A stretch of DNA of 64,000 nucleotides, taken from contig NZ_BSDC01000003.1 of NCBI RefSeq assembly GCF_030268045.1, forward strand, positions 124,001 to 188,000. The letters are read 5' to 3'. The DNA comes from Geothrix edaphica (GTDB lineage Bacteria; Acidobacteriota; Holophagae; Holophagales; Holophagaceae). Below, piece after piece: positions 29,440-42,618 of this stretch; position 1 is the first letter of the stretch; the number at the start of each line of letters is the position of its first letter. Under the pieces are notes generated by a model. The model was given only the letters and a program-made list of their open reading frames with translations. It made no database searches and had not been told where the DNA came from. Made by a program: the position numbers and the translations under genes.

Positions 29440-32142
29440 TCAGGAACGCTTCCGCCAGCTGGAAACCAGCGAAAGGACTTCCTCATGGTGTTCGGAGTCC
29501 TCGCTGCGGGGGCTGGCCAGGGCCGAGGCCAGGGCATCCAGGGCCTCCTTGTCCCGCCCCCGCAGGTGCAGCACCCAGGCCCGGGCGCGCCAGATCTGGG
29601 GGCGGTCGCCCGCGAGCCCCCGGGCCTCGTCCAGCAGGCGCTCGGCTTCCGCCAGGTCGCGCTGCCGGGCCTTGCACTCGGCGAGGGCGGCGAGGGCCTC
29701 GGCCCGGTTCTGCGCCGTCCCCTTCTTCGCCAGCAGCGCCGAGGCCTCCATCAGGCGGATGGTGGCGGCCGGGAGCCTCCCCCGCGCCCGCAGGAGATCC
29801 CCCAGCCGGTAGAGGGCCCGCCCCTGGATCAGGAGGAAGTCGTGTTTCCGCGCCTCCTCCAGGACGGCGTCGTACCGGGCGGCCGCCTGGTCGAAGTCGC
29901 CCTTCATGTGGGCGGCGATGCCCAGCAGCAGCAGCGTCCGGCACTCGCCCTCGGCATCCCCCAGGTCCCGGCGCAGGCGGAGCACCTCCAGGAAGGTCTT
30001 CTCCGCCGGCCCGGGCCGCCCCTCCTCCAGGTCGAGGATGGCCAGGTTGTTCTGCGTGAGGGCCGTGTACAGAGGGCTCTCGGCCACGCCCGCGTCGGCC
30101 AGGGCATCCTGGTAGAAGCCGCGGGCCTCCTGGGTCCGGCCCAGGTACTTGGCCCGGTTGCCCAGGTTCACCAGGATGTCGGTCCTCAGCCCCCGGTTCC
30201 CTGTGGCGGTCACCATCTCGAGGGCGGGCGTGAGCGACCGTTCCGCCGCCGTCCAGTCCTCCTTGTGGATCCAGTGGGTGCCGAGCTCGTTCAGGATCTT
30301 GGCCTGGAGGTCCGTGTCCCGCGTGGCCCGGCCCAGCTCCAGGGCCTGCTCCAGCAGGGGGACCTCCTCATCGGACTTCCGGTCCGTCCTCCGGGCGAGG
30401 AGCGCCAGCCCGATCAGCCCTTCGGCTTCGGAGTACCGGTCCCGCGACTCGCGGGCGGTGGCCACGGCCCACATGAGCGTGGGCAGGGCCTTCGCGTCCC
30501 CCCGGCTGTACAGCACCGAGCCATAGACCCGCACCCCCGGAGCGAAGCGCGGCGCCAGCAGCGCGGCCCGCTCCAGGAAGGGAAGGGCCCGCATCCGGTC
30601 CCCGTGCCGGAGCAGGTCGAGGCCTGTGCCGTAGGCCTCGAGGGCCTCCTTCGGGGGCATGGCCGGGAACTCGGGGGACCGGCCCAGCGGCGACAGGGTC
30701 CGGTTCAGCTCCTTCAGCACCGAAGGCACCGCCAGGTTGGGTTCATAGTCGGGGGTGGCGGCGGCAGATTCCCGGCTGGCCCGCAGGCGGCCCTCGCGGT
30801 CCACCAGCCTCAGCCGCAGCACGGGAGCGCCCGAGCCGGGAACCGGGGCCAGCTCCCCCAGCATCACCAGGTCCGCGCCGGTCCGGGCCACCAGGCGGCG
30901 GATGAGCGCCGCCTCATCGCCTGCCGTCGCCGCCATGGCCGCGGCCCGGGGCCGGTCGTCTCCGGGATCGCGATCCTGCACGACCTTCACCTGGGGGAAG
31001 CTGCGGAGGATGTGCTCCAGCAGGTCCGTGGTGGTGATCTCCGCCTCGGGCGTGCGCCCGGGATCCGGCGTGAGGTTCCGGACCGGCGCCACCACCAGCC
31101 GGGCCTGGCGCGAGGCCGAGAACTCGGGGATCACGCCCCGGCCGTAGGCCCATGTGCCCAGCCCCGTCAGGGCGAGCGTCACGGCCGCCGCGGCGGCCGC
31201 CCACCACACAGGGGAGGTGGGCGCCTGGATCTGGTCCAGCGCCTCGACCACTTCCTGCGCCGTGGGGCGGGCCGACGGATCCAGGCAGAGCAGGCGGTCC
31301 ACCAGGTTCCGGAGGGCGTGCGGCCCGGCGGCGTGCCCATGGGGATGCGGCCCCGACCCTGAGCGCCACTTGAGCACCCTCCGGGTCCAGGGGACCGGGG
31401 TCCGCTCCGTCCCCGGCGGCGGATCGCCCGCCAGGGCCAGGGAGGCGACCACGCCGAGCGCATACAGGTCCGTGGCCGCCGTGGCACTCTCCCCCAGCAG
31501 CAGCTCCGGGGCGATGAAGCCGCGGGTGCCCATGACCGTCCCGGGCTGGGTGAGCGGCTCATCGGAACCCGGGCAGGTCGCCGTCGTGCCTTCCTCCCCA
31601 GGCGGGGCGGGCCAGGTGTCCCCGCGGTCCCCCGGTCCCGCCACTTCGAAGTCCTTCGCCAGGCCGAAATCCAGGAGCTTGGCCGAGCCCTCCGGCGTGA
31701 TCAGGATGTTCGACGGCTTCAGGTCCCGGTGGATGACGCCCTTGGCGTGGGCCGCCGCCAGGGCCAGGGCCACCTCGCGGAGCAGCCGGAGCGCTTTCGG
31801 GAGCGGCAGCGGCCCCTGCTCCAGCAGCTTCGAGAGGGGGGTCCCCTCCACCCACTCCATGGCCATGACCAGGGTCCCGTGGTGGTCCAGCCAGTCGTAC
31901 ACGTGGCAGATGCCCGCGTGGTCGAGCTTCGCGAGGATCTGGGCCTCCCGCTGGAAACGGCTCAGGGCGGCCCGCTGGCTGGCATGGTCCGCGCGGATGG
32001 TCTTCAGGGCGACGTGGCGCTCCAGCGAGCCGTCCCAGCCCCTGTATACCCGCCCCATGCCGCCCTCGGCGACAAACGCCTCCACCTGGTAACGGCCGAC
32101 CACGTCACCGGGCTGGAGCGGGCTGGCAGTCTGAGTCGCCAT
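29440..32142 (-). CDS. Ser/Thr protein kinase with TPR region
   Basis: 900 aa. Kinase domain about 15-310: EGGMGRVY loop, VALKTI Lys, HRDLKPSN, LLDFGLAKDF, and GTRGFIAPELL in the activation segment. A low-complexity acidic insert lies between DFG and that segment (about 172-205). A membrane span sits at about 325-345 (WWAAAAAAVTLALTGLGTW), then a TolB/enzyme-like region with LVVAPVRNLTPDPG and TPR repeats to the end. The architecture parallels the kinase at 10313, with matching order: kinase, membrane span, ENRT/RNLT segment, TPR. Confidence 0.93.
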   Translation of the reverse strand: MATQTASPLQPGDVVGRYQVEAFVAEGGMGRVYRGWDGSLERHVALKTIRADHASQRAALSRFQREAQILAKLDHAGICHVYDWLDHHGTLVMAMEWVEGTPLSKLLEQGPLPLPKALRLLREVALALAAAHAKGVIHRDLKPSNILITPEGSAKLLDFGLAKDFEVAGPGDRGDTWPAPPGEEGTTATCPGSDEPLTQPGTVMGTRGFIAPELLLGESATAATDLYALGVVASLALAGDPPPGTERTPVPWTRRVLKWRSGSGPHPHGHAAGPHALRNLVDRLLCLDPSARPTAQEVVEALDQIQAPTSPVWWAAAAAAVTLALTGLGTWAYGRGVIPEFSASRQARLVVAPVRNLTPDPGRTPEAEITTTDLLEHILRSFPQVKVVQDRDPGDDRPRAAAMAATAGDEAALIRRLVARTGADLVMLGELAPVPGSGAPVLRLRLVDREGRLRASRESAAATPDYEPNLAVPSVLKELNRTLSPLGRSPEFPAMPPKEALEAYGTGLDLLRHGDRMRALPFLERAALLAPRFAPGVRVYGSVLYSRGDAKALPTLMWAVATARESRDRYSEAEGLIGLALLARRTDRKSDEEVPLLEQALELGRATRDTDLQAKILNELGTHWIHKEDWTAAERSLTPALEMVTATGNRGLRTDILVNLGNRAKYLGRTQEARGFYQDALADAGVAESPLYTALTQNNLAILDLEEGRPGPAEKTFLEVLRLRRDLGDAEGECRTLLLLGIAAHMKGDFDQAAARYDAVLEEARKHDFLLIQGRALYRLGDLLRARGRLPAATIRLMEASALLAKKGTAQNRAEALAALAECKARQRDLAEAERLLDEARGLAGDRPQIWRARAWVLHLRGRDKEALDALASALASPRSEDSEHHEEVLSLVSSWRKRS

Positions 32143-32318
32143 GGGAGTCGCTGGAACAGGACACCATCAGGAGCCGACCATCCACTCGGGCCGCACATCC
32201 GTCCTTCGAGGAAGCCGGGGCATTCGCAAAAAGTCTACATCTCCTGTCCACCACCTCTGATTTCAACCGATCTCCGACCCGGCCCCTTCACCGGCCCGTC
32301 CGGCGGTACACTCCCGTC

Positions 32319-33548
32319 ATGCTTCCGCTTCTGCCCCTGGTGGCCCTCTACGCCCAGGCTCCGGCCTCCCCCGCCCTCGCGACCGTGACCGCCGAGCCCA
32401 GGGAGGTGCGCCCCGGCGAGTCGGTGCTGCTGACCTGGGCCTGCCCCAGGTCCACCCAGGTGCGGCTGGAACCCGGCGGCATGATCCTGCCGGGCCGCTC
32501 CCAGGTGACGCTGCGGCCCGCCTACACCACGACCTACCGCCTCTTCGACGCCAGCCCCGGGGCGGAATCTGGCGGCGCGGAGCTGGGCCACGCGGAGGTG
32601 CGCGTCACCCCCGGCCTGCCCCTGGGCGAGGCCGCCCGCATCTGCGCCTTCGACGCCAGCGCCAAGGCCGTGCTGCCCGGCGATCCCGTGGTGCTGAAGT
32701 GGGAATGCGCGGGCAGCGCCAAGGTGCGCCTGGAGCCCGGCGGCCTCGAGCTCGACGGCAAGAGCGAAGTCACCGTCACACCCCTGGAGAGCACCCGCTA
32801 CACCATCACCGCCAACAACGCCGCTGGCGGCCAGAGCCGCACGCTGGAGGTGTCCGTGCTGGGCCACCAGGCCCTGGCCCTCGCCAAGGCCGCCCGGACC
32901 CCCACGGCCAGCGTCTGCAGCTTCGAGGCCAGCCGCACGGTGGTGAAGCCCGGCGAGCAGGTGGACCTGAAGTGGGTGTGCCAGGGCGACGCCAAGGTGC
33001 GCCTGGAGCCCGGCGGCCTGGAGCTGGACGGCCAGTCCAGCATCGCCGTGGTCCCGGACAGGACCACGGTCTACACGCTGAGCGTCAGCAACCTCATGGG
33101 CGGCTCCTCGCGCAGCGTCGAGGTGCAGGTGGAGGCCCCGCGCCGGGTGCTCACCGAAAAGGATCTGGCTGATCCGGAAGAGGCCGTGAAGCCCCTGGAG
33201 CACATGGACCTCCAGGAGGCCCTGCACCGGGGCGCCGCCCTGCGGGCCGCCGCGCCGGAAGGCGCCTGGACGCTCCGGCTGGTGGTCTCCGGCCGCGCCG
33301 ACGGCCTCAAGCAGGTGGCCCGGGCTGCCGGCCCCAAGGCCCCGGGCGTGCTGGTGCTGCCCTACGTGCGCCCCGACGGCTTCCGCTGGTGGCAGGCCTG
33401 CTACGGCGCCTACCCCACCCGCGCCGCCGCCCTGAAGGCCTGGCGCAGCGCGCCGGAGGCCCTGAAGAAGGCCTTCCACGACGCCCTGCCCCTCCGCCTC
33501 CAGAGGCTGCCGGGCGATCCGCCGAAGGTCGAGCCTAGCCGCGGATGA
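32319..33548 (+). CDS. Secreted protein with three Ig-like repeats and a SPOR-like C-terminus
   Basis: 409 aa with a short signal peptide (MLPLLPLVALYAQAPA). Three related beta-sandwich repeats follow (about 20-105, 108-195 and 205-285). Each carries the marks VRPGE/LPGD/VKPGE, then TW/KW-C, then VRLEPGG. The C-terminal about 300-400 has a SPOR-like pattern (DGFRWWQACYGAYPTRAAALKAWRSAPEAL). SPOR domains bind denuded septal peptidoglycan, so a cell-wall role is possible. A TACACT box ends only 6 nt before the ATG, hinting at a leaderless mRNA. Confidence 0.75.
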   Translation: MLPLLPLVALYAQAPASPALATVTAEPREVRPGESVLLTWACPRSTQVRLEPGGMILPGRSQVTLRPAYTTTYRLFDASPGAESGGAELGHAEVRVTPGLPLGEAARICAFDASAKAVLPGDPVVLKWECAGSAKVRLEPGGLELDGKSEVTVTPLESTRYTITANNAAGGQSRTLEVSVLGHQALALAKAARTPTASVCSFEASRTVVKPGEQVDLKWVCQGDAKVRLEPGGLELDGQSSIAVVPDRTTVYTLSVSNLMGGSSRSVEVQVEAPRRVLTEKDLADPEEAVKPLEHMDLQEALHRGAALRAAAPEGAWTLRLVVSGRADGLKQVARAAGPKAPGVLVLPYVRPDGFRWWQACYGAYPTRAAALKAWRSAPEALKKAFHDALPLRLQRLPGDPPKVEPSRG

Positions 33549-34050
33549 CGTCGATGGTGTAGGGCTCGCCGATCATGTTGGCGTCCTGCGTGTCCACGAT
33601 GAAGTAGATGGTGCGCGTCGCCTTCGTGGGGTTCTCGTAGGTGGCCTGGGGTTCGCCGGTGGGGATGCGGTTCTGGAGCAGGCCGGGCTCATCCTGGCCC
33701 CAGGCGTTCACCGCCAGCACCCGGAACCAGGCCTTGCGGCCCTCCACCACCTGCACCTTCACCTTGCCGCCCGCGGGCACCTCGATGGCATAGGCCCGCC
33801 GGCCGCTCATGTCGGGGATCTTGTCCGTCACCCGGACGCTGCCCGCCGGCAGCTGCAGGGCCGGAATGGAGGGCCCCTTGCGGGCCCCCTGCCGGGTCTC
33901 GCCCAGGATGCCGGCCTCCGCCCCCGGATCCGGGCGGTGGGGCACCATGGGCCCCCGCGGAGCCTTGGGCAGGTCCTTGGCGTCCACCACCGGCAGGGGC
34001 GCCGGGGCCTGGAGGACCATCATGGGAAGCAGCAACAGACTGGGCAGCAT
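33535..34050 (-). CDS. Secreted hypothetical protein
   Basis: 171 aa from the ATG at 34050 (GGAGG about 6 nt upstream; an earlier in-frame ATG at 34068 is weaker). Signal peptide MLPSLLLLPMMVLQAPAPLP, then a Pro-rich stretch and a beta-rich domain (VRVTDKIPDMSGRRAYAIEV, VEGRKAWFRVLAVNAWGQ) that resembles a small fibronectin-like or pilus-associated fold. No family is recognised. Its 3' end overlaps the convergent Ig/SPOR gene by 14 bp. Confidence 0.68.
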   Translation of the reverse strand: MLPSLLLLPMMVLQAPAPLPVVDAKDLPKAPRGPMVPHRPDPGAEAGILGETRQGARKGPSIPALQLPAGSVRVTDKIPDMSGRRAYAIEVPAGGKVKVQVVEGRKAWFRVLAVNAWGQDEPGLLQNRIPTGEPQATYENPTKATRTIYFIVDTQDANMIGEPYTIDVIRG

Positions 34051-34212
34051 GGGCACCTCCGCGCACATCCACTCCTAGGATGCTCCCAAACCGGAATGGG
34101 TTTACCCCGGGAAGGAAGGTCGGGCCATGCCTCGGATTACTACCTGTTGAAACAGGCATGGCGAATGACTATCTTCAGACAGCCCAATGCGGGCTTTATC
34201 CAAGGAGGACAC

Positions 34213-34656
34213 ATGAAGATCAATCCCTTCCGGTCGGTTGCGCTTCCCGTGGCCCTGGCGGCCTGCGCGCTCGCCCCTGCCCACGCCGGCGAAACGCCCG
34301 GCAAGGCCGTGGCCTTGGCCGCCGACCAGCTTTCCTGGGAGGACCTGGCGGCCAAGGGGGCCGGCGTCATGATCTCCGACGTCGAGGGCCACCACGCCAA
34401 GGGGGCCTGGCACGGCTTCGTCAAGTTCCCCGTGGCCAGCAAGAGCGGCGTCCACGCCCACTCCAGCGCCCTGAGGCTCGTGGTGGTGTCGGGCACCTTC
34501 CGCTACGGAAGCGACCCCGACCACGAGCAGCCCTATGGGCCCGGCTCGTACGTCTTCATCCCGGCGAACCACCCCCACTCCAACAGCCAGCCGGACGGGG
34601 CCGTGGTCTACGTCGAGCAGTCGGGCAAGTACGACAACAAGCCGGCGGGGCACTAG
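34213..34656 (+). CDS. Secreted cupin-domain protein
   Basis: 147 aa; the ATG at 34213 has AAGGAGG 5 nt upstream. Signal peptide to about residue 25 (ending PAHAGE). The cupin core (about 60-145) shows GVHAHSSALRLVVVSGTFRYG and GPGSYVFIPANHPHSNSQ, with His residues suited to bind a metal. It looks like the DUF4437/ChrR-type small cupins, usually of unknown ligand. An open frame upstream to 33937 is not supported by a ribosome site. A spacer of about 160 bp separates it from the divergent gene to its left. Confidence 0.82.
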   Translation: MKINPFRSVALPVALAACALAPAHAGETPGKAVALAADQLSWEDLAAKGAGVMISDVEGHHAKGAWHGFVKFPVASKSGVHAHSSALRLVVVSGTFRYGSDPDHEQPYGPGSYVFIPANHPHSNSQPDGAVVYVEQSGKYDNKPAGH

Positions 34657-34680
34657 TTCAGATGGGACGGAGCCACCCGG

Positions 34681-35205
34681 TCAGTGGAGCACCTCGTACT
34701 CGCTCTGGACCAGTCCGCTCGGGAAGGACCGGGTGGCGACGTGATGCAGGCGCACATCGTGAGGCAGGGTGCTGAAGAGCGGGATGCCCTCGCCGATCAG
34801 CACGGGGACCCGGGTGATGATGAGGCGGTCCACCAGCCCCGCCCGCAGGAACCGCTGGATGGTGATGCCGCCGTCCACGTAGAGCCTCGTGGCCCCGCGC
34901 TCCGCCAGCCGGGCCACGATCTCCGCCGGCGAGCCGGCCATCTGCTCGACAGTGCTGCCGATGGCGCTCGGCAGCTGGAGCGGGCGGCCGCTCAGCACCA
35001 CCACCCGCTTGGCGCCGTAGGGCCAGGGATCGAAGGTCAGCACCTTCTTGAAGGTCTTGCGACCAATGACCAGGGCATCGATGCCCGCCAGAAATTCCTC
35101 GAAACCGTGGGGCTCCCCACCCTCCTCCGGCAGCCAATCCAGGTCATGGTTCGGGCGCGCCATGAACCCGTCCACGCTCACACCCACAAAGACGGACACC
35201 GTCAT
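34681..35205 (-). CDS. Dihydrofolate reductase-like / RibD C-terminal domain protein
   Basis: 174 aa, family length. N-terminus MTVSVFVGVSVDGFMARPNHDLDWL, then VIGRKTFKKVLTFDPWPYG, the Gly-rich ATRLYVDGGITIQRFL and the end-domain RLIITRVPVLIGEGIPLF. These place it in the RibD-C/DHFR-like group (YyaP/YwjB type), generally NADPH-dependent reductases of uncertain substrate. GGAGG 5 nt before the ATG lies inside a hairpin arm (35210-35240). The cassette array begins directly upstream of it. Confidence 0.9.
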   Translation of the reverse strand: MTVSVFVGVSVDGFMARPNHDLDWLPEEGGEPHGFEEFLAGIDALVIGRKTFKKVLTFDPWPYGAKRVVVLSGRPLQLPSAIGSTVEQMAGSPAEIVARLAERGATRLYVDGGITIQRFLRAGLVDRLIITRVPVLIGEGIPLFSTLPHDVRLHHVATRSFPSGLVQSEYEVLH

Positions 35206-35209
35206 CCGG

Positions 35210-35240
35210 CCCTCCCCACCTTTGGGTGGCGTGGGGAGGG
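35210..35240 (-). promoter_or_regulatory. Hairpin containing the ribosome site of the DHFR-like gene
   Basis: CCCTCCCCA (35210-35218) pairs with TGGGGAGGG (35232-35240). On the minus strand the arm holds GGGGAGGG, the only plausible Shine-Dalgarno for the ATG at 35205. Folding would mask it. The same bases overlap the decayed end of the last attC site. Confidence 0.45.
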
Positions 35241-35352
35241 TGAAAGTGACCGAAACTGCCTACCCCGAGGCGCTAAAACGAACCTTGGAAGCAAGGGCTA
35301 TCGGGGGTGGAAGGCAATGAAGGCCGGGTCCGAGTTGAGCAGGAGGTTAGGC
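35232..35352 (-). other. attC-like recombination site 3 (terminal, degenerate)
   Basis: Read on the minus strand, it begins with R'' GCCTAAC (35346-35352), then CTCCTGCTCAACTCGGACC, close to the two other sites. The distal half keeps GCGCCTCGG and CGGT but has lost a recognisable GTTRRRY R' box. R'' is the exact complement of the TTAGGC at the start of its own cassette. It marks the downstream end of the array. Confidence 0.75.
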
Positions 35353-35368
35353 ATGGAGGGAAACGCGC

Positions 35369-36253
35369 TTACATTGATCCCCGAGAATCGAAGACGAACA
35401 CCTCACCGGGAACCAGGTTGAAGTTGCAGTCTTCTGCAGGAAGTCCTCGACTCTTCAGTGTATTGATGACTTTCCCCTTTTCGATTAGGTCCATGAGCAT
35501 CCTGTGTTCAAGGTTTTCTACATGCGACAGCATGTGCACAAAACCATTGAGCACTTCTTGACTGTCTTGCATGAGTTGTAACTTGGACTCCGCAATAGAC
35601 CTGATGTTAAGTTTCTGGACTCCCGCGTGTGCGGCTTCTGAATTCCGAAGTCGGTTCACTAGGTCCATGTGGTCCATAGCGCAATGCTCAAACTCCATGC
35701 ATAAATGGAACGGGTGTGCCAGCGTGCCGACCAAAGAGACCAGATGAGGCTCTTTGCCACTTTGCCGTTTGCAATCTGGACACGGAGACTCTAGCAGCGC
35801 GCCTAAAGCCATGCGCCTGTAACGAGACTCTGGAATCTGGGTGCAGTATATGAGTTGCTTGATCGCAACCTCGCAGAATCGCGCCGAATACATGAGCACT
35901 TCGTTGTATAGACGGATGCGTTCCACCTCTGCGTCAACCTCGTTGTGATCCGGTGTGTCGGTGGTCGCGTACTCGTGAAAGGCATTGATGATCCTGCCCA
36001 TGAGGAGTTGCATTGTGACGCCGCTTGCCGTGTAGGGGTTCGTGAACCCACCGTTTGTAGGGGGTTCTGATGCCGGCATGAGAGACAGTCGACCACATTG
36101 CAGCATCCACGCCCGCATTTCACCTGCTAGCGGCAGGAGATTCACCCCTGCAATTCGCTCTCCTGCCCAGCGGAATGCGTGCGGACGGTAGCTCCACGAG
36201 TGATGGGTGCCGTGCCACTCACGTTTTGATGGGCGCATAGTCGTGTTGGTCAT
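35369..36253 (-). CDS. Cassette gene A: hypothetical protein, helical, CPDC motif
   Basis: 294 aa in a gene cassette (36289 to about 35232). No known family is recognised. It is mostly helical after residue 80. CPDC (158-161) followed by several Cys/His residues could bind zinc. The late helix RLRNSEAAHAG holds R203 and H209 (R-x5-H), a spacing compatible with HEPN nucleases, but that is only suggestive. Base composition is clearly lower in GC than lpxB or the DHFR-like gene, and the stop lies 16 nt before attC site 3. No strong ribosome site is seen before the ATG; a second in-frame ATG is at 36238. Confidence 0.75.
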   Translation of the reverse strand: MTNTTMRPSKREWHGTHHSWSYRPHAFRWAGERIAGVNLLPLAGEMRAWMLQCGRLSLMPASEPPTNGGFTNPYTASGVTMQLLMGRIINAFHEYATTDTPDHNEVDAEVERIRLYNEVLMYSARFCEVAIKQLIYCTQIPESRYRRMALGALLESPCPDCKRQSGKEPHLVSLVGTLAHPFHLCMEFEHCAMDHMDLVNRLRNSEAAHAGVQKLNIRSIAESKLQLMQDSQEVLNGFVHMLSHVENLEHRMLMDLIEKGKVINTLKSRGLPAEDCNFNLVPGEVFVFDSRGSM

Positions 36254-36283
36254 CGTTGAAGTGTTGGGGTGGTTTACTTTGAA

Positions 36284-36407
36284 GCCTAATGAATGAAGCT
36301 AACCGGCCCCGCCTGTACCGAGGCGATGAGCGGAGCCGAGGAAGCGAGTAACTGAGAGAGAACGAAGGGCAATGCAGGCGGAGCCCGAGTTGAGCGGAGG
36401 GTTAGGT
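36284..36407 (-). other. attC-like recombination site 2
   Basis: Minus strand: R'' ACCTAAC (36401-36407), CCTCCGCTCAACTCGG, a central region with inverted arms (CTCCGCCTG / CAGGCGGGG), CCGGTTAGCTTCATT and a variant R' ATTAGGC (36284-36290, first base not G). It is about 124 bp and over most of its length matches attC site 1. It lies between cassette genes B and A. Confidence 0.9.
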
Positions 36408-36420
36408 GCTGTATCTGTAG

Positions 36421-36909
36421 CTAAACTAGGCGAATGGTATCGAAGTGAAGCTTGGCCCAGGTGATGAGCTTGAGTGCCATTTCTGACATGGCTTCAGGAG
36501 GGAAATGTTTCAACTTGTTGCCATATCGAATTCGGTTTGGATACTTGGAGGCCCCGTATTTTTCGCCCTCAATCAAGGTTCCAATCGTTCCATTCCCAAA
36601 AGCTGGATCTACGGTTACACCGCGTACCTCGGATGCAGAAATCCAATGTGGAACTCCTGGAGCAATCTCTTTGTATATTTCACACGCGGATAGATCCATT
36701 AGCAACTGTGATAAATTGTGGGATCTTGCTCGAATCTGCCCGATGGGCTTTCCTGCTTTTTCGAGCAGGGCCTTAAGAGATATCTCGGCTGATAAGAGGC
36801 TTAGATAGAGTACGGTTTGTCTCGTAGCAAAATTCTTGAGTCCGCTTGTTACGAGGGACTGCGCTGTTTCAGCAAGTTTTTCACTAAACTCAAGGCTGTA
36901 TTCGGTCAT
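36421..36909 (-). CDS. Cassette gene B: HEPN-like protein
   Basis: 162 aa from the ATG at 36909, preceded by GAGG 7 nt upstream and by the cassette boundary GTTAGATGC. The longer frame to 37098 only translates the attC site. Residues 30-70 (YLSLLSAEISLKALLEKAGKP, then RARSHNLSQLL) show the helix pair and the R-S-H-N-L block typical of HEPN proteins of the KNTase-associated or DUF86-like type. The stop is 14 nt before attC site 2. HEPN proteins are often parts of toxin-antitoxin or RNA-targeting systems; no antitoxin gene is visible within the cassette. Confidence 0.78.
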   Translation of the reverse strand: MTEYSLEFSEKLAETAQSLVTSGLKNFATRQTVLYLSLLSAEISLKALLEKAGKPIGQIRARSHNLSQLLMDLSACEIYKEIAPGVPHWISASEVRGVTVDPAFGNGTIGTLIEGEKYGASKYPNRIRYGNKLKHFPPEAMSEMALKLITWAKLHFDTIRLV

Positions 36910-36923
36910 TTGGGACCTCGTGC

Positions 36924-37046
36924 ATCTAACGATGAAGCTAACCGGCCCCGCCTGCACCGAGGCGCCGAGCGGAGCCGAGGAAGCGGGACGAAGAGAAAGA
37001 GCGGAAGGCAATGCAGGCGGGGTCCGAGTTGAGCGGAGGGTTAGGC
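36924..37046 (-). other. attC-like recombination site 1
   Basis: Minus strand: R'' GCCTAAC (37040-37046), CCTCCGCTCAACTCGGA, an 11-bp perfect stem CCCCGCCTGCA / TGCAGGCGGGG, an inner conserved block, CCGGTTAGCTTCATC, and R' GTTAGAT (36924-36930). It is about 123 bp with the attC order of boxes. R'' complements the TTAGGC that starts its own cassette at 37802. Confidence 0.93.
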
Positions 37047-37064
37047 CTTGAAGAGACCTAGAAG

Positions 37065-37775
37065 TTACTGATGAGAATTGGACCATATGATTGGACATTG
37101 CCAGGTAAACATAAAGGGAGGGCGGTATGTTTGCCAGTCGAACCTTGATTTGTTATCTGGTACATTGTTTTGATGAAATTCGGATTTAAGCCAGAGATTG
37201 TATTCGAACTCAGCTAGTGAAATGAATTTTAAACAAATATCAATGAAATAATCCAAATCTTCTTTTTTATTACTCCAGGTTGTATCGCCGAATTGATAAC
37301 TGCTATCAGAAATACCAACAGAAAAGGAATCACCAGCCTTTTCCATACCTGGCAATCTCTCTGCAAAATGCGCAAATGTATAGCGTGCATTTTCTAATTT
37401 TCCAAAATAATCGATATTGTTTTTGTATAAATTGGCCGCATTACTACACTGAGGGAATCCGGAAATAAAATTTATTAAATATACAGATTTGTATATGGTC
37501 TCCCAGTATACTTCCCACTCCATCAATGGAGCCTGCATTCGTAAAATCGATTCTTCCGGGCTTATCGAAGTAATTCGCCCAATACGCAATTGGCCAAGTT
37601 GCTTAAAATCAGGTTCTTTTGTTAGATCTAAATCATTTTTGGATTGAGATTCCAATGCTCGGGTGTGTTGAGTGGGCAAAAAGCGAAGGTATAGCTTTAA
37701 GCGATCCATGGCTAAGCCAATAGTTCCCCAATCTTTTTTGTGAAGTGTTTTTGGCTTAATTTTGATTTTTCCCAA
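37065..37775 (-). CDS. Cassette gene C: AT-rich hypothetical protein
   Basis: 236 aa from a TTG start, with AGGA 7 nt upstream and the array boundary GTTAGGC just before. No family is recognised. It is markedly AT-rich against the GC-rich backbone, a strong sign of transfer. A helical middle holds LENARYTFAHFAERLPGM: R131 and H136 fit R-x4-H, and the F-x-H-F-x-E-R pattern resembles helical, HEPN-like hypotheticals (tentative). The stop lies 18 nt before attC site 1. It is the first cassette downstream of lpxB. Confidence 0.78.
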   Translation of the reverse strand: MGKIKIKPKTLHKKDWGTIGLAMDRLKLYLRFLPTQHTRALESQSKNDLDLTKEPDFKQLGQLRIGRITSISPEESILRMQAPLMEWEVYWETIYKSVYLINFISGFPQCSNAANLYKNNIDYFGKLENARYTFAHFAERLPGMEKAGDSFSVGISDSSYQFGDTTWSNKKEDLDYFIDICLKFISLAEFEYNLWLKSEFHQNNVPDNKSRFDWQTYRPPFMFTWQCPIIWSNSHQ

Positions 37776-37796
37776 GGTGATTTCCTAAAAAATGTG

Positions 37797-37846
37797 GCCT
37801 AACTTTGAATTAGACGACCAAACCCACCCTGAGCCCGCCGTCTAAT
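37797..37846 (-). other. Array entry boundary: attI-like or half-attC site
   Basis: On the minus strand CGTCTAATTCAAAGTTAGGCC ends in a full core GTTAGGC (37797-37803), one step before cassette gene C. The core and the AAAGTTAGGC context resemble attI1. An 8-bp inverted repeat (ATTAGACG 37809-37816 / CGTCTAAT 37839-37846) flanks it. No intI gene lies in the following bases, so it could equally be the right half of a truncated attC. Confidence 0.55.
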
Positions 37847-38004
37847 GTGGATGAAAACGATACCGGCATTGTAGATCACTGGGTCCCTTCCCCGCCGAAC
37901 GGGGCAAACCAAGGGGCGAACGGTAAGGCCCCTCCCCCCCTGGGTGGGAGAAGCAGGGATCGGCCGAGCGCTACCGCCTCCTTAGGCTCACCTGGCCACG
38001 CCCC

Positions 38005-39138
38005 TCAGGCCTGGAGCTTCCCCAGCAGATCCTCGGCCACGCGCCCCGCGGCTCCCGGCTCCCCCAGGTGCCCGCGCACTTCACTCAGCTCGGCGCGCAC
38101 GCGCCGAGCGACCTCGGAGTCCAGCAGGTGCGTCAGCTCCAGGCCCAGCCGCTCGGGGTTCACCTCACCCTGGAGCAGCTCGGGGGCCACTTCGCGGCGG
38201 GCGACGACGTTGGCGAGGCCGAAGTGGGGGACCTTCACGATGCGGCGGGCCATCTGATAGGTGAGGGCGTTCAGCTTGTAGACGATGGCGAAGGGGGTGC
38301 CCAGCAGGGCGGTCTCCAGGGTGGCGGTGCCGGAGGCCACCAGGGCCGCGTCCGCGTAGGCCCGGGCCGCGTAGGGGTGGTCGCGCACCAGGGTCACGGG
38401 GGCGTCCCCCAGGTGGGCGCGCACGAAGGCCGAGTCCAGCGTGGGTGCCACGGGCAGCACCCACTGCACCTCGGGCCGGGCCGTGCGCCAGCGCCGGGCC
38501 AGCTCGGCCATGGGCGGCAGCAGCCGCTCGATCTCGCCCCTGCGGCTGCCCGGCAGCAGGGCCACCAGGGGCCGCGCGGGATCGAGGCCCGTCTCCGTGA
38601 AGAAGGCGGCGCGGTCGCACTCGGCCTTCACCACCTCCACCAGGGGATGGCCCACGAAGCGGGCATCCACGGGGTAGCCGCGGAACAGCTCCGGCTCGAA
38701 ATCGAAGAGGCAGTAGAGGGTATCCAGCACCGTGCCCAGCTCGGGAATGCGGCCCTTCTTCCAGGCCCACACCTGGGGGCACACGTACTGGTGCAGCGTC
38801 ACGGCGGGCAACTGCTTCCGCAGGGCCTTGGCCATGCGCAGGTTGAAGCCCGGGTAGTCGATGAGCAAGGCGCCCGTGATCTTCTCCTCCGCCGCCGCGG
38901 CCAGGATCTGCTTGAAGAGGCGGTTGAGGCGCGGCAGGTGCTTGATGACCTCCACGAAGCCCACCACCGCCAGGTCCTTCACGTCCGCCAGCTTGCGGTC
39001 CAGGAAGGGCGTCATGCGCGGGCCGCCCACGCCGATGATGCGCAGCTCGGGACGCCGGGCCTTCAGCTCGCGCAGCAGCTCCGCGCCGTGCAGGTCGCCG
39101 GAGTCCTCGCCCGCGAGGACGAGCAGGGTCTGGGTCAC
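38005..39138 (-). CDS. lpxB: Lipid-A-disaccharide synthase
   Basis: 377 aa, normal length. LpxB marks are AGEDSGDLHGAELL at the N-terminus, GVGGPRMTPFLDRKL, DYPGFNLRMAKALRK, YVCPQVWAWKKGRI, LALLPGSRRGEIERLLP-type (VALLPGSRRGEIERL) and the late SGTATLETALLGTPFAIVYK. It joins UDP-2,3-diacylglucosamine and lipid X to form the lipid A disaccharide at the inner membrane. The upstream gene overlaps by 4 nt. Its stop is 229 nt before the cassette array, with no clear intrinsic terminator between them. Confidence 0.96.
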   Translation of the reverse strand: MTQTLLVLAGEDSGDLHGAELLRELKARRPELRIIGVGGPRMTPFLDRKLADVKDLAVVGFVEVIKHLPRLNRLFKQILAAAAEEKITGALLIDYPGFNLRMAKALRKQLPAVTLHQYVCPQVWAWKKGRIPELGTVLDTLYCLFDFEPELFRGYPVDARFVGHPLVEVVKAECDRAAFFTETGLDPARPLVALLPGSRRGEIERLLPPMAELARRWRTARPEVQWVLPVAPTLDSAFVRAHLGDAPVTLVRDHPYAARAYADAALVASGTATLETALLGTPFAIVYKLNALTYQMARRIVKVPHFGLANVVARREVAPELLQGEVNPERLGLELTHLLDSEVARRVRAELSEVRGHLGEPGAAGRVAEDLLGKLQA

Positions 39139-39821
39139 GCGTGGCCCCCCTCGCGCTCCAGGTGCCGGCCGAACACCACGCTGTCATCGGGCACCACCGG
39201 GCGGCCCAGGGCCGTGGCGGGCATCTCCGCGGGGAAGAGCACGGCCGGATGGGCGGCTTCCAGCGCCGCGGCCTGGGCGCGGAAGAGGTCGGGCTCCGTG
39301 GCGGGCAGGGCCATGTCCCAGCGGTAGCCGAGCTTCTGGAGGGCCTGCAGATCGGAGCCGGGTTCGCAGACGCCGCACCAGAGGCGGTCCGCCAGCGCTT
39401 CGGCATCGGCGGTGCCCGGGTGCCAGCAGTAGCCCACGGCCTCGGCCCGGGCCTGCCGGAGCAGCTCCACCACCTCGGCCTCGGCCCCGCCCTCGATCCG
39501 CAGGGCCAGCTTCACGCCCCGGCCGCTGGTGGCCTCCAGCAGGGTCTCCAGCTGGCCCAGCAGGCGGAAGCCCCCTTCCCGGTTCTGGGGGCGGGCCGCG
39601 GGCAGGATGAGGAAGTCCGGGGCCAGGGCCGCGTGGAGGGCCGCCAGGGCCTCTTCCACCGGGGCCTCGCCCGGCAGGTCGATGGCGTGGACCGCCAGCC
39701 CGCGGCGGACGGCGGCCGGCCACTCCGGATGCAGCCGGCCCTCCCACCGCAGGGTCACGGGGGCGAAGGGGAACCAGGACCCGGGAGCAAAACTGGATGG
39801 AATCTGGGGCACGAACCGCAT
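39135..39821 (-). CDS. Hypothetical TIM-barrel-like protein, coupled to lpxB
   Basis: About 228 aa from the ATG at 39821; in-frame starts at 39860 (GAGG upstream) and 39866 are alternatives but overlap the divergent DUF2203 gene. The sequence has repeating beta-alpha units (APVTLRWEGRLHPEW, GLAVHAIDLPGEAPVEEAL, DFLILPAARPQNREGG, VGYCWHPGTADAEAL) that suggest a xylose-isomerase-like TIM barrel, though no active-site motif is recognised. It lies directly before lpxB and overlaps it by 4 nt, so a role in lipid A or envelope sugar metabolism is possible but unproven. Confidence 0.7.
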   Translation of the reverse strand: MRFVPQIPSSFAPGSWFPFAPVTLRWEGRLHPEWPAAVRRGLAVHAIDLPGEAPVEEALAALHAALAPDFLILPAARPQNREGGFRLLGQLETLLEATSGRGVKLALRIEGGAEAEVVELLRQARAEAVGYCWHPGTADAEALADRLWCGVCEPGSDLQALQKLGYRWDMALPATEPDLFRAQAAALEAAHPAVLFPAEMPATALGRPVVPDDSVVFGRHLEREGGHA

Positions 39822-39849
39822 CGGCTTATCATGGAGCAATGGAGGCGCC

Positions 39850-40212
39850 ATGGGCCGCATTTTCACCCTCGACGAAGCCCGGGCCCTGATGCCCCAGGTG
39901 AAGGCGGTGACGGAACCTGTCTACACACTGGCCGCGAGCCTCGCCGAGGAACTCACCCACGCCGAGGAGGCGCAGGACGAGCGCCGGGCCGAGGAGCTCC
40001 GCGACCGCCTGCAGACCCTGGTCAAGTCCTGGCAGCAGAGCATGCAGGACCTGGAGGCCGACGTGAAGGGCCTGTGGCTCGTGGATTTCGATTCCGGCGA
40101 CGGCTACTGGTGCTGGGCCTATCCCGAGGAGGCCCTCGACCACTGGCACAGCTACGAAGGCGGCTTCCGCTCCCGCGTGCCCGCGGATCAGCGGCCGGGC
40201 GTGCAGGCCTAG
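39850..40212 (+). CDS. DUF2203 family protein
   Basis: 120 aa; the ATG at 39850 follows GGAGG by 4 nt and begins at the family N-terminus MGRIFTLDEARALMPQVK. A helical coiled middle with many Glu/Arg residues (HAEEAQDERRAEELRDRLQT) is followed by the DUF2203 end with VDFDSGDGYWCWAYPEEALDHWH. Its function is unknown in the family. The MGMT-like gene begins 3 nt after its stop, so they share a transcript. Confidence 0.9.
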   Translation: MGRIFTLDEARALMPQVKAVTEPVYTLAASLAEELTHAEEAQDERRAEELRDRLQTLVKSWQQSMQDLEADVKGLWLVDFDSGDGYWCWAYPEEALDHWHSYEGGFRSRVPADQRPGVQA

Positions 40213-40215
40213 GGG

Positions 40216-40623
40216 ATGCCGAAGCCCCTGCCTGCGAAGCGCATCGAGCCCACGGCCCCGCCCGGCGATTTCCGCGTGGCGGTGCTGGCGGTGGTGGCGC
40301 AGATCCCGGAGGGGTGTCTGGCTTCGTACGGCCAGGTGGCCCTGCTCGCGGGTTTCCCCCAGCGCCCGCGCCAGGTGGGCATGGTGCTGTCGGGCCTGCC
40401 GGAAGGCACCGACCTGCCCTGGCATCGCGTGGTGAACACGCGGGGCTACGTGCCCAGCCGGGGCCGCTGGTGGGGCGCCTTCGAGCAGATCGGCCGCCTG
40501 CGCGACGAGGGCATCGAGGTGGACGACCAGGGCAACCTGGACCTGGAGGCCCATCGGTGGGACGGGGTGGAGCGCAAGCCGAAGGTCGCCGCCAAACGCC
40601 CCGGTGCCCGGAAAAAAGCCTGA
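40216..40623 (+). CDS. Alkyltransferase-like (ATL) MGMT-family protein
   Basis: 135 aa with the MGMT DNA-binding fold (VLAVVAQIPEGCLASYGQVALLAG, RQVGMVLSGLP). The methyl-acceptor motif PCHR is here PWHR (LPWHRVVNTRGYVPS), as in ATL proteins, so the protein should bind alkylated guanine without repairing it and hand it to nucleotide excision repair. It follows the DUF2203 gene closely. Confidence 0.9.
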   Translation: MPKPLPAKRIEPTAPPGDFRVAVLAVVAQIPEGCLASYGQVALLAGFPQRPRQVGMVLSGLPEGTDLPWHRVVNTRGYVPSRGRWWGAFEQIGRLRDEGIEVDDQGNLDLEAHRWDGVERKPKVAAKRPGARKKA

Positions 40624-40699
40624 TTCCGGCGCCCCCCGGGCCGCCCTTCCCGCGCCAGGCCCGGGCCCGCTCAGGTACACTGGGGGGGCGGAGGGCTCC

Positions 40700-40935
40700 A
40701 TGAAGGTGCGTGTGTCGGTGCAGTTGAAGCCGGGGATCCTGGATCCCCAGGGCAAAGCGGTGGAGCAGGGCCTGCACGGTTTCGGCTTCGAGGTGGAGCA
40801 TGTCCGCATCGGCCGGCTCATCGAGCTGGACGTCCCGGGGACCGACGTCGCCGAGGTGAAGGCCAAGGCCCAGGCCATGTGCGACAAGCTGCTGGTCAAT
40901 CCCGTGATGGAGAAGGCCTCCATCGAGGTGTTGTG

Positions 40936-40936
<1 letters not shown>
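40700..40936 (+). CDS. purS: Phosphoribosylformylglycinamidine synthase subunit PurS
   Basis: 78 aa, the usual PurS length; MKVRVSVQLKPGILDPQGKA is diagnostic. PurS bridges PurL and PurQ in the fourth step of purine synthesis (FGAR to FGAM). GGAGGG precedes the ATG, and a TACACT -10-like box lies at 40676-40681. The stop and the purQ start share one base (TGATG). Confidence 0.95.
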
Positions 40937-41634
<698 letters not shown>

Positions 41635-41760
41635 GCCGGGGCCTTGCGGGTGCCATGGAAAAAAATCAGCCTTGGCTTGTGAAAATTTCATGCCTTGGAA
41701 AAAGTTTTCCTGTCATCCTTCCGGATAGCCCCGATGGGCATGCCTGTTTATTCCTGAGCC

Positions 41761-42618
41761 ATGAGCGAATCAGAAGCCAAGAACCTCCAGACCTACACCA
41801 GCGGGCCCCTCCGCCTGGCCGTCCTCAAGCGGGATCCCGTGCCCGCCAAGCTCCTGCCCGCGCGGGATGCGTGGACGCTGCTCCAGCCCACGCATGCGGT
41901 GCGCGTCTGCACCAGCGAGGACCGTGAGGAGGGCGTCATCCGCTCCGGCGACCTGGCCCTGCTGCTGCCGGGCTTCGGCCACACCCTGAAGCGCCACCAC
42001 GCGAACGCGCCCTTCGGCTTCACGGCGCTGTTCATGGAAGGCCCCTTCCCCGAGCCGCTGCTGTCCTCCCTCCAGAACCCGCCACGGAAGTGGCAGGAAT
42101 CCAGCTTCGCCGTGCTGCGCAGCCTCAGCCTCAAGCAGCTGTTCAGCATCTTCTCCCAGGAGCTGGCGAATCCCGATGGCGTGCAGCTCATGACCCGGGA
42201 GCTCTTCCTCATCCTGCTGGGCGCGGAGCTCTCCCGCCTGACGGAGAAGGAGGACCGGGGCCGCTTCCCCTACCGCCTGAACCGCTCAACCCTCCAGCTG
42301 GTGCTGGACCACATGGAAGTCCACATCGGCTCCAAGAACAGCGTGCCCGAGCTGGCCACCATGGCCCGCTGCACGCCGGACCACTTCATCCGCCTCTTCC
42401 GCGAGGCCACCAGCACCACCCCCCACCAGTACCTCATCGAGCGCCGCCTCCAGCGGGCCGTGACGCTGCTGGCCAACGGCGAGCGCCCCAGCGACGTGGC
42501 GAAGATCCTGGGCTTCTACGACGCCAGCGCCTTCACCCGCGCCTTCAAGCGCCGCTTCGGCGTCCCCCCCAGCGAGTACGCGCAGGAAGCCTACGACCGG
42601 CAGTTCCCCAAGAAGTAG
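41761..42618 (+). CDS. AraC family transcriptional regulator
   Basis: 285 aa. The N-terminal sensing part (about 1-165) is cupin-like. The C-terminal AraC double helix-turn-helix (about 180-280) has VPELATMARCTPDHFIRLFREATSTTP and the second recognition segment PSDVAKILGFYDASAFTRAFKRRFGVPPSEY. Target genes are not evident; the adjacent convergent gene is a small secreted protein. A strong bidirectional terminator follows. The upstream 126 bp holds an A-rich patch but no clear binding site. Confidence 0.93.
   Translation: MSESEAKNLQTYTSGPLRLAVLKRDPVPAKLLPARDAWTLLQPTHAVRVCTSEDREEGVIRSGDLALLLPGFGHTLKRHHANAPFGFTALFMEGPFPEPLLSSLQNPPRKWQESSFAVLRSLSLKQLFSIFSQELANPDGVQLMTRELFLILLGAELSRLTEKEDRGRFPYRLNRSTLQLVLDHMEVHIGSKNSVPELATMARCTPDHFIRLFREATSTTPHQYLIERRLQRAVTLLANGERPSDVAKILGFYDASAFTRAFKRRFGVPPSEYAQEAYDRQFPKK

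Follow-up and report, generated by a model that had tools for sequence, protein, structure and literature searches.

How does a chromosomal array of integron gene cassettes come to stand at a place where there is no integrase gene? The question is raised by a 64-kb stretch of the Geothrix edaphica genome (C3:124001-188000, from an assembly of 3.16 Mb in 6 contigs; hereafter the window, meaning the whole stretch that was analysed), in which three genes between lpxB and a ribD-like gene are separated by attC-like sites. An earlier note, made from the letters of the window alone, had taken this region for an integrase-less array of the CALIN type (cluster of attC sites lacking integron integrases) or else for the tail of a larger integron. 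As we describe below, the array starts at a site of its own that has the core of an integron attI site, and we consider it likely that the array is a CALIN built up through on-target insertion at this orphan attI-type site, served in trans by a distant integrase, and that it is now probably frozen. The finding suggests that one enzyme has loaded genes into several chromosomal arrays in these soil bacteria.

The window harbours a genuine three-gene integron cassette array, which runs on the minus strand from 37802 to about 35240. A nucleotide profile trained on 42 attC sites of the same genome, with the sites of the window held out, matches three places in the window (E-values of 1.5e-32 for attC1, 8.5e-32 for attC2 and 7.3e-14 for attC3), exactly those that the earlier note had named, and no fourth place in the 64 kb at E ≤ 10. 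The order on the minus strand is lpxB, an attI-type core, three cassettes with open reading frames (ORFs) of 236, 162 and 294 aa, and the ribD-like gene, with the following features:

37799..37816, minus strand: orphan attI core CGTCTAATTCAAAG^TTAG, the head of the array (exact pattern and attI matrix)
37817..37887, minus strand: segment upstream of the core, with TGATCTACAAT..CGGTATCGTT (putative promoter) and TTAGACGGCGGGCTC about 29 bp before the core
36930..37802, minus strand: cassette 1, including attC1 up to the exchange point, with the boundaries G^TTAGGC (37803) and G^TTAGAT (36930)
36925..37046, minus strand: attC1 (held-out profile)
36290..36929, minus strand: cassette 2 (boundaries between R'' and cassette start)
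36285..36407, minus strand: attC2, with R' = ATTAGGC (held-out profile)
35236..36289, minus strand: cassette 3 with the shortened attC3 (boundaries and right-junction comparison)
35241..35352 (end approximate), minus strand: attC3, 5' half only (held-out profile and right-junction comparison)
38005..39138, minus strand: lpxB, the conserved left chromosomal flank (Pfam LpxB, E 4.9e-91)
34681..35205, minus strand: ribD-C-domain gene, the right chromosomal flank, common to 7 relatives (Pfam RibD_C, E 6.1e-17)

In good agreement with the earlier note, which had counted two exact matches and one that is off by a single base, the R'' boxes of cassettes 1 and 3 are exact complements of the starts of their own cassettes (GTTAGGC and GCCTAAC in cassette 1; TTAGGC and GCCTAAC, over six bases, in cassette 3), and cassette 2 has one mismatch (GTTAGATGC against GCACCTAAC). 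The uniform attC length of about 123 bp and the R' consensus GTTRRRY that it had proposed hold for part of the array: attC1 and attC2, the two full-length sites of the three, measure 122-123 bp, R' of attC2 begins with A, and attC3 is shortened, its 3' half being no longer recognisable and replaced by ribD upstream DNA common to the 7 relatives. In an alignment of 44 attC sites, which includes attC1 and attC2 of the window and leaves out attC3, both the R''/R' boxes and the L''/L' inverted repeats are present, and of 15 consensus pairs 6 have changes on both sides. Folding of the bottom strands, which the earlier note had suggested as a check, resulted in z-scores of -1.83, -0.22 and +0.66 for attC1, attC2 and attC3, which is weak support by itself, and the top strand of attC2 folds slightly better than its bottom strand. 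A search of positions 34600-38300 against Rfam produced no match at E ≤ 1, so there is no ready-made RNA family for these sites. The cassettes are indeed AT-richer than their surroundings: the GC content of 500-bp segments is 0.38-0.59 within 35000-38000, whereas it is 0.66-0.76 in the rest of 30000-42000. A tRNA-linked island was considered as well and rejected, ARAGORN giving a single tRNA in the window, 17 kb from the array.

Less than 200 bp beyond the lpxB stop codon, between lpxB and cassette 1, the minus strand reads CGTCTAATTCAAAG^TTAGGC over 37816-37797, with the exchange point at G37803^T37802. This site, which is not adjacent to an intI gene, is one of five matches to the exact core pattern in its own genome, compared with 0 in the control. 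We also scored the window with a matrix built from 21 intI-adjacent attI sites of relatives, with the own genome excluded and with only the half of the site that is not supplied by cassettes; the matrix puts 37803 on the minus strand first on both strands of the window, at 21.9 bits versus 13.9 bits for the next place. The intI-adjacent attI sites of the relatives read ..YCGTCCAATTCAAAG^TTAGG, with variants. About 29 bp before the window core, TTAGACG resembles, by eye, the TAGRCG found at about -30 of other attI sites, and in other lpxB loci the upstream motif likewise adjoins an attI-like core, even if the remaining flank is different; the segment that contains it is possibly a promoter. Because the array has its own attI-core head at 37799-37816, with a similar head after lpxB in other Geothrix loci, the suggestion that it is the tail of a larger integron has to be dropped, while the alternative designation as CALIN-type, i.e. 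a cassette array without a neighbouring integrase, stands.

Where, then, is the integrase? A tblastn search with IntI at E ≤ 1e-3 found none across the whole window, as had been stated before. The term 'integrase-less' is correct for the window and not for the genome, which contains a single intI (TIGR02249, 429 bits versus a cut-off of 265; C3:557586-558482, L010:2574-3551), 396 kb from the array head, together with 51 attC places at E ≤ 1e-5 in the profile search. These dispersed attC copies carry cassette genes between them, so the sites are not the common dispersed repeat without cassette-like genes that the earlier note had named as a refutation. The frame of this intI stops at ...HKDVATTIIRTYGLL, just before the catalytic tyrosine, which by analogy with IntI1 is taken to be the nucleophile. 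At the matching place the integrases of 25 of 26 relatives read TTMIYTHVLN or TTAIYTHVLN, and the remaining one ends earlier (three further loci yielded no sequence after filtering); directly behind the interrupted gene lies a 473-aa ORF of another tyrosine recombinase. Since the frame ends before the catalytic tyrosine, the host is probably integrase-dead and the array frozen, assuming that the frame break abolishes activity.

In the genus as a whole, 32 of 47 Geothrix genomes (the own genome included) have an IntI match at E ≤ 1e-40 and 29 of the 47 pass the family cut-off; 26 of these 29 do so with one match and three with two (G011, G018 and G030, the latter at L159 and L160). The attC profile has hits in 46 of the 47 genomes, with at least 75 in six of them. 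In the own genome, a pattern search located attC sites at contig ends (the start and end of C2, the start of C1 and the end of C3) as well as in small remote groups; the contigs therefore probably break within arrays. Several contig ends within arrays (L010, L012, L013) have the sequence ACGTCCTCCCCAC.. nearby, which is perhaps part of an insertion sequence that breaks the assembly.

The exact core was then sought in 13 chosen genomes of the 47, with the reversed pattern as control. There are 27 matches compared with 0 in the control, at least one of them in 10 of the 13 genomes, and 25 of the 27 precede an attC. Eight cores stand 143-210 bp from IntI (one of these without an attC, the contig ending 139 bp further on). 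For the other 19, the fetched locus contains no IntI; behind 18 of them an attC follows on the same strand 196-1093 bp downstream, i.e. at about one cassette length (one of these attC hits is weak, at 20.9 bits). The exception is L150 of G. campi. Behind that orphan core, at L150:6440-6510, a short attC of a different kind can be made out by eye; Geothrix may take up foreign attC types. The closed genomes examined each have several arrays, most of them without intI and with a head site, and in G007 and G014 the remote arrays comprise up to 34 attC.

Compared by their upstream DNA, 28 heads form three groups. The first resembles the intI-linked attI and takes in one orphan, L155; the second is a family seen both at several large orphan arrays and within arrays; the third, to which the head of the window belongs, has no upstream relatives. 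In G014, the spacer TTACTAG is common to the intI-linked attI and each of the three orphan sites, and it is absent from the other 16 orphan sites. We also observed a unit that measures about 200 nt, has an attI-like site at its end (GGTCTGCCCATTCA..GGTAAAAT..GGATTAGGCG..GTCCAAGTCTAG^TTAGG) and occupies cassette slots inside arrays (L010:3747-3980, L011:1909, L143:4267 and L148:13543; also in L101 and L112). The orphan heads at L012:13050, L139 and L152 are homologous to this unit (72-88% over roughly 90-130 nt), which is possibly a mobile seed of docking sites.

If the core after lpxB is a docking site, is it present at the same place in other species? We compared 59 lpxB loci (L020-L078, with up to 7 kb of flank, some ending soon after lpxB); judged by LpxB, Geothrix campi is the closest of the named relatives, at 95%. 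A loose motif search detected the upstream motif together with a core-like match just after lpxB in 11 of the 59 loci (L020-L026, L028, L029, L054 and L078; two matches elsewhere, L054:9678 and L068:9787, were set aside), and an attC stands behind this head in nine of the 11, the exceptions being L025 and L028. The attI matrix ranks the head first in six of the nine (L020, L021, L024, L026, L054, L078) and second in L023 and L029. When the first-cassette ORFs of at least 60 aa of the nine loci and the window are compared, none matches another's, peptides read from attC aside; the ORF covering the first cassette of G. terrae matches the third cassette of G. oryzisoli at 42%. Farther from the head, the lpxB loci have genes that are 87-95% conserved among G. 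terrae, G. paludis, SG200 and, in part, G. fermentans (four loci for one gene). Differing first cassettes together with conserved genes further along are consistent with insertion at the head, the conserved genes not necessarily being cassettes. One lpxB cassette of G. oryzisoli has relatives at 70-76% in four genomes.

Traffic between arrays was followed with 275 cassettes, cut between attC hits from fetched stretches of five genomes and compared at a threshold of 80% identity over 80% of the length. The same cassette is found in the intI-linked array and in a remote array, over its whole length, in two pairs in G007 and five in G014. All these pairs of the two closed genomes are 100% identical except one at 99.8%, and their positions are scattered. 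In addition, there is one pair in G017 (97.8%, 135 bp), a family in G030 (82-91%) and one pair between two orphan arrays of G014 (100%); L139/L151 was left out of the count, as this pair results from the overlap between two fetched stretches. Only four pairs between different genomes pass the threshold. The intI-linked array of the own genome (G000) supplied no cassette for the comparison, as the contig ends there. Because the matching cassettes are scattered, it is single cassettes that were moved or copied.

Taken together, these data lead us to propose the following mechanism. The integrase made from the single distant intI would recombine the double-stranded core CGTCYAATTCAAAG^TT with the folded attC that a circular cassette carries, and new cassettes would enter next to the orphan site between lpxB and the ribD-like gene as they do at an intI-linked attI. 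The same integrase would serve other orphan sites in Geothrix genomes, so that the genus would as a rule combine a single integrase with several docking sites, an array of its own starting at each of them. In the host of the window, intI would have been interrupted later, just before the catalytic tyrosine, which would probably have frozen the array. We infer that the orphan sites recombine and that IntI acts on them in trans. Extended beyond this locus, the proposal would describe a distributed integron, in which several dedicated docking sites of the attI type, some of them at the same chromosomal place across species, are served in trans by one integrase, and each site builds its own array. 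Many 'integrase-less' CALINs would then be live satellites rather than debris, and new sites would possibly be seeded by the mobile unit of about 200 nt, carrying attI and a possible promoter, in cassette slots. We lean towards this wider scheme, though only by a little.

Several observations weigh against growth at a dedicated site. What the window head shares with intI-adjacent attI is the core only (about 16 bp plus the exchange point), and a blastn comparison of its upstream DNA with the other 27 heads gave no match; since the window site is no longer top-ranked when the matrix is extended to -36 or -60, it has an attI core without the pyrimidine-rich accessory part. The lpxB heads of the relatives are mostly inexact, one of the nine (L078) fitting the exact core pattern: the head of L022 is missed by the attI matrix, that of G. 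terrae (L021) has two extra bases in the spacer, and that of G. campi (L020) has GATAGG. Among the 13 genomes, no exact core was found in G020, G030 and G032, the latter two of which are closed. The heads of small arrays in the own genome (L014, L016, L017 and L018) are imperfect, L018 fitting the pattern with another spacer; they are perhaps true off-target insertions or decayed orphan sites. The orphan heads of G014 are possibly copies of one another (38 nt at 95%), so their common spacer does not count as three independent events. Finally, no copy of the window cassettes was found elsewhere (cassettes 2 and 3 searched as proteins, all three within the compared array stretches), and the lpxB cassettes of G. 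oryzisoli have 100% matches only in their own locus; therefore, traffic to the lpxB site is deduced from that seen at other sites.

The imperfect cores, both at the small own-genome heads and at most of the relatives' lpxB heads, would be accounted for by off-target insertion, in which the cassettes went into a fortuitous attG-like secondary site behind lpxB; inheritance and erosion of the array followed, and the core is simply a sequence that the integrase tolerates. Off-target insertion through a distant IntI has been described as one way in which CALINs arise (PMC8618304), and there are known attG sites (PMC12901181). However, chance targets should also occur unoccupied, whereas nearly all exact cores precede an attC and the control has none. 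Moreover, the lpxB locus retains a head-like core across species with differing first cassettes, and in G023 a core stands at the place orthologous to the L015 array with different DNA behind it (in the empty-site comparison of L015 with 20 loci, most matches stop at the end of the neighbouring gene and G023 alone shows the core). We therefore regard off-target insertion as an unlikely origin of the array.

It is quite improbable that a complete integron once stood at this place, lost intI and left its attI and cassettes behind. CALINs have been proposed to be degraded integrons in a survey that counted 2961 of them versus 2760 complete integrons (PMC9024848), and the orphan head L155 of G014 resembles the intI-linked attI in its upstream DNA (77% over 100 nt). 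Yet no IntI-like stretch was detected at E ≤ 1e-3 in the 59 lpxB loci, in the window or in the compared remote-array loci of this genome and its relatives, the core follows the lpxB stop codon within 200 bp, and most of the orphan heads compared are not homologous upstream to the intI-linked attI. Transfer of part of the main array to the lpxB locus by rearrangement, also a published route (PMC8618304), would explain neither why each piece has an attI core nor why other species have different cassettes at this chromosomal place, and we give it hardly any credence. On-target growth at an orphan attI-type site thus remains our preferred explanation.

The cassettes encode the following proteins:

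37065..37775, minus strand: cassette 1 ORF, 236 aa, TTG start, without significant family match
36421..36909, minus strand: cassette 2 ORF, 162 aa, HEPN-like by eye only
35369..36253, minus strand: cassette 3 ORF, 294 aa, found in two genomes of the phylum

Searches of the three proteins against Pfam, NCBIfam and PADLOC gave nothing above the cut-off, and no plasmid match was found for the ORF of cassette 1. The cassette 2 protein occurs in one of 396 genomes of the phylum at E ≤ 1e-5, the own genome alone, and that of cassette 3 in two of the 396, the own genome and one with a distant homologue at 33%. A sequence search of the PDB with the cassette 2 protein found no match. Two single-sequence structure models are poor, with predicted local distance difference test scores (pLDDT) of 52.5 for cassette 2 and 41.9 for the other, and a fold search with the cassette 2 model was not significant, its best match being a HEPN domain at E 2.8. 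By eye, HEPN-like features can be seen in all three: RYTFAH in cassette 1, an RSHNL-type stretch in cassette 2 and RNSEAAH in cassette 3. The HEPN identity is a by-eye lead that no profile or fold search supports significantly.

Off-target insertion, loss of intI and rearrangement are published origins of CALINs (PMC8618304), to which on-target growth at an orphan attI would add a fourth. Mobilisation of CALIN cassettes in trans has already been described as possible (PMC12444791, PMC9668308), and in Xanthomonas CALINs occupy recurrent loci away from intI (PMC12444791). The attI sites outside class 1 are poorly described and are not searched for by the standard program (PMC9024848), and our searches of an open-access library found no description of orphan attI heads of CALINs. 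If CALINs have an attI of their own, they would be extra platforms for gene capture, the recurrent Xanthomonas loci (PMC12444791) would gain a testable cause, and attI heads would allow live arrays to be sorted from debris. The closed Geothrix genomes are well suited for testing whether one integrase serves several arrays.

How does the array compare with known systems? Like other CALINs, it consists of attC sites and cassettes with no intI nearby, the nearest being 396 kb away, and such arrays are dispersed in the genus. It differs in having an attI-type head, as the accessible part of the literature on CALIN origins names no dedicated second attI. As in a sedentary chromosomal integron, the genus has intI and attI together with a long array whose genes are mostly unknown; unlike in such an integron, the closed Geothrix genomes examined have several arrays, most of them without intI and with a head site. 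The head itself is like an attI site in its L-like and R boxes, its G^TT and a spacer as in many intI-linked sites, and unlike one in that it does not stand beside intI and has different upstream accessory DNA. The delta-attI-type cassettes of class 1 and class 2 integrons likewise have a short recombining attI core away from intI (PMC12901181), but theirs is at the 3' end of a cassette, whereas the window core heads a chromosomal array; a related unit sits inside Geothrix arrays. With attG sites, finally, the Geothrix heads share chromosomal insertion outside attI and attC, and differ from them in being a specific core common to the resident attI type.

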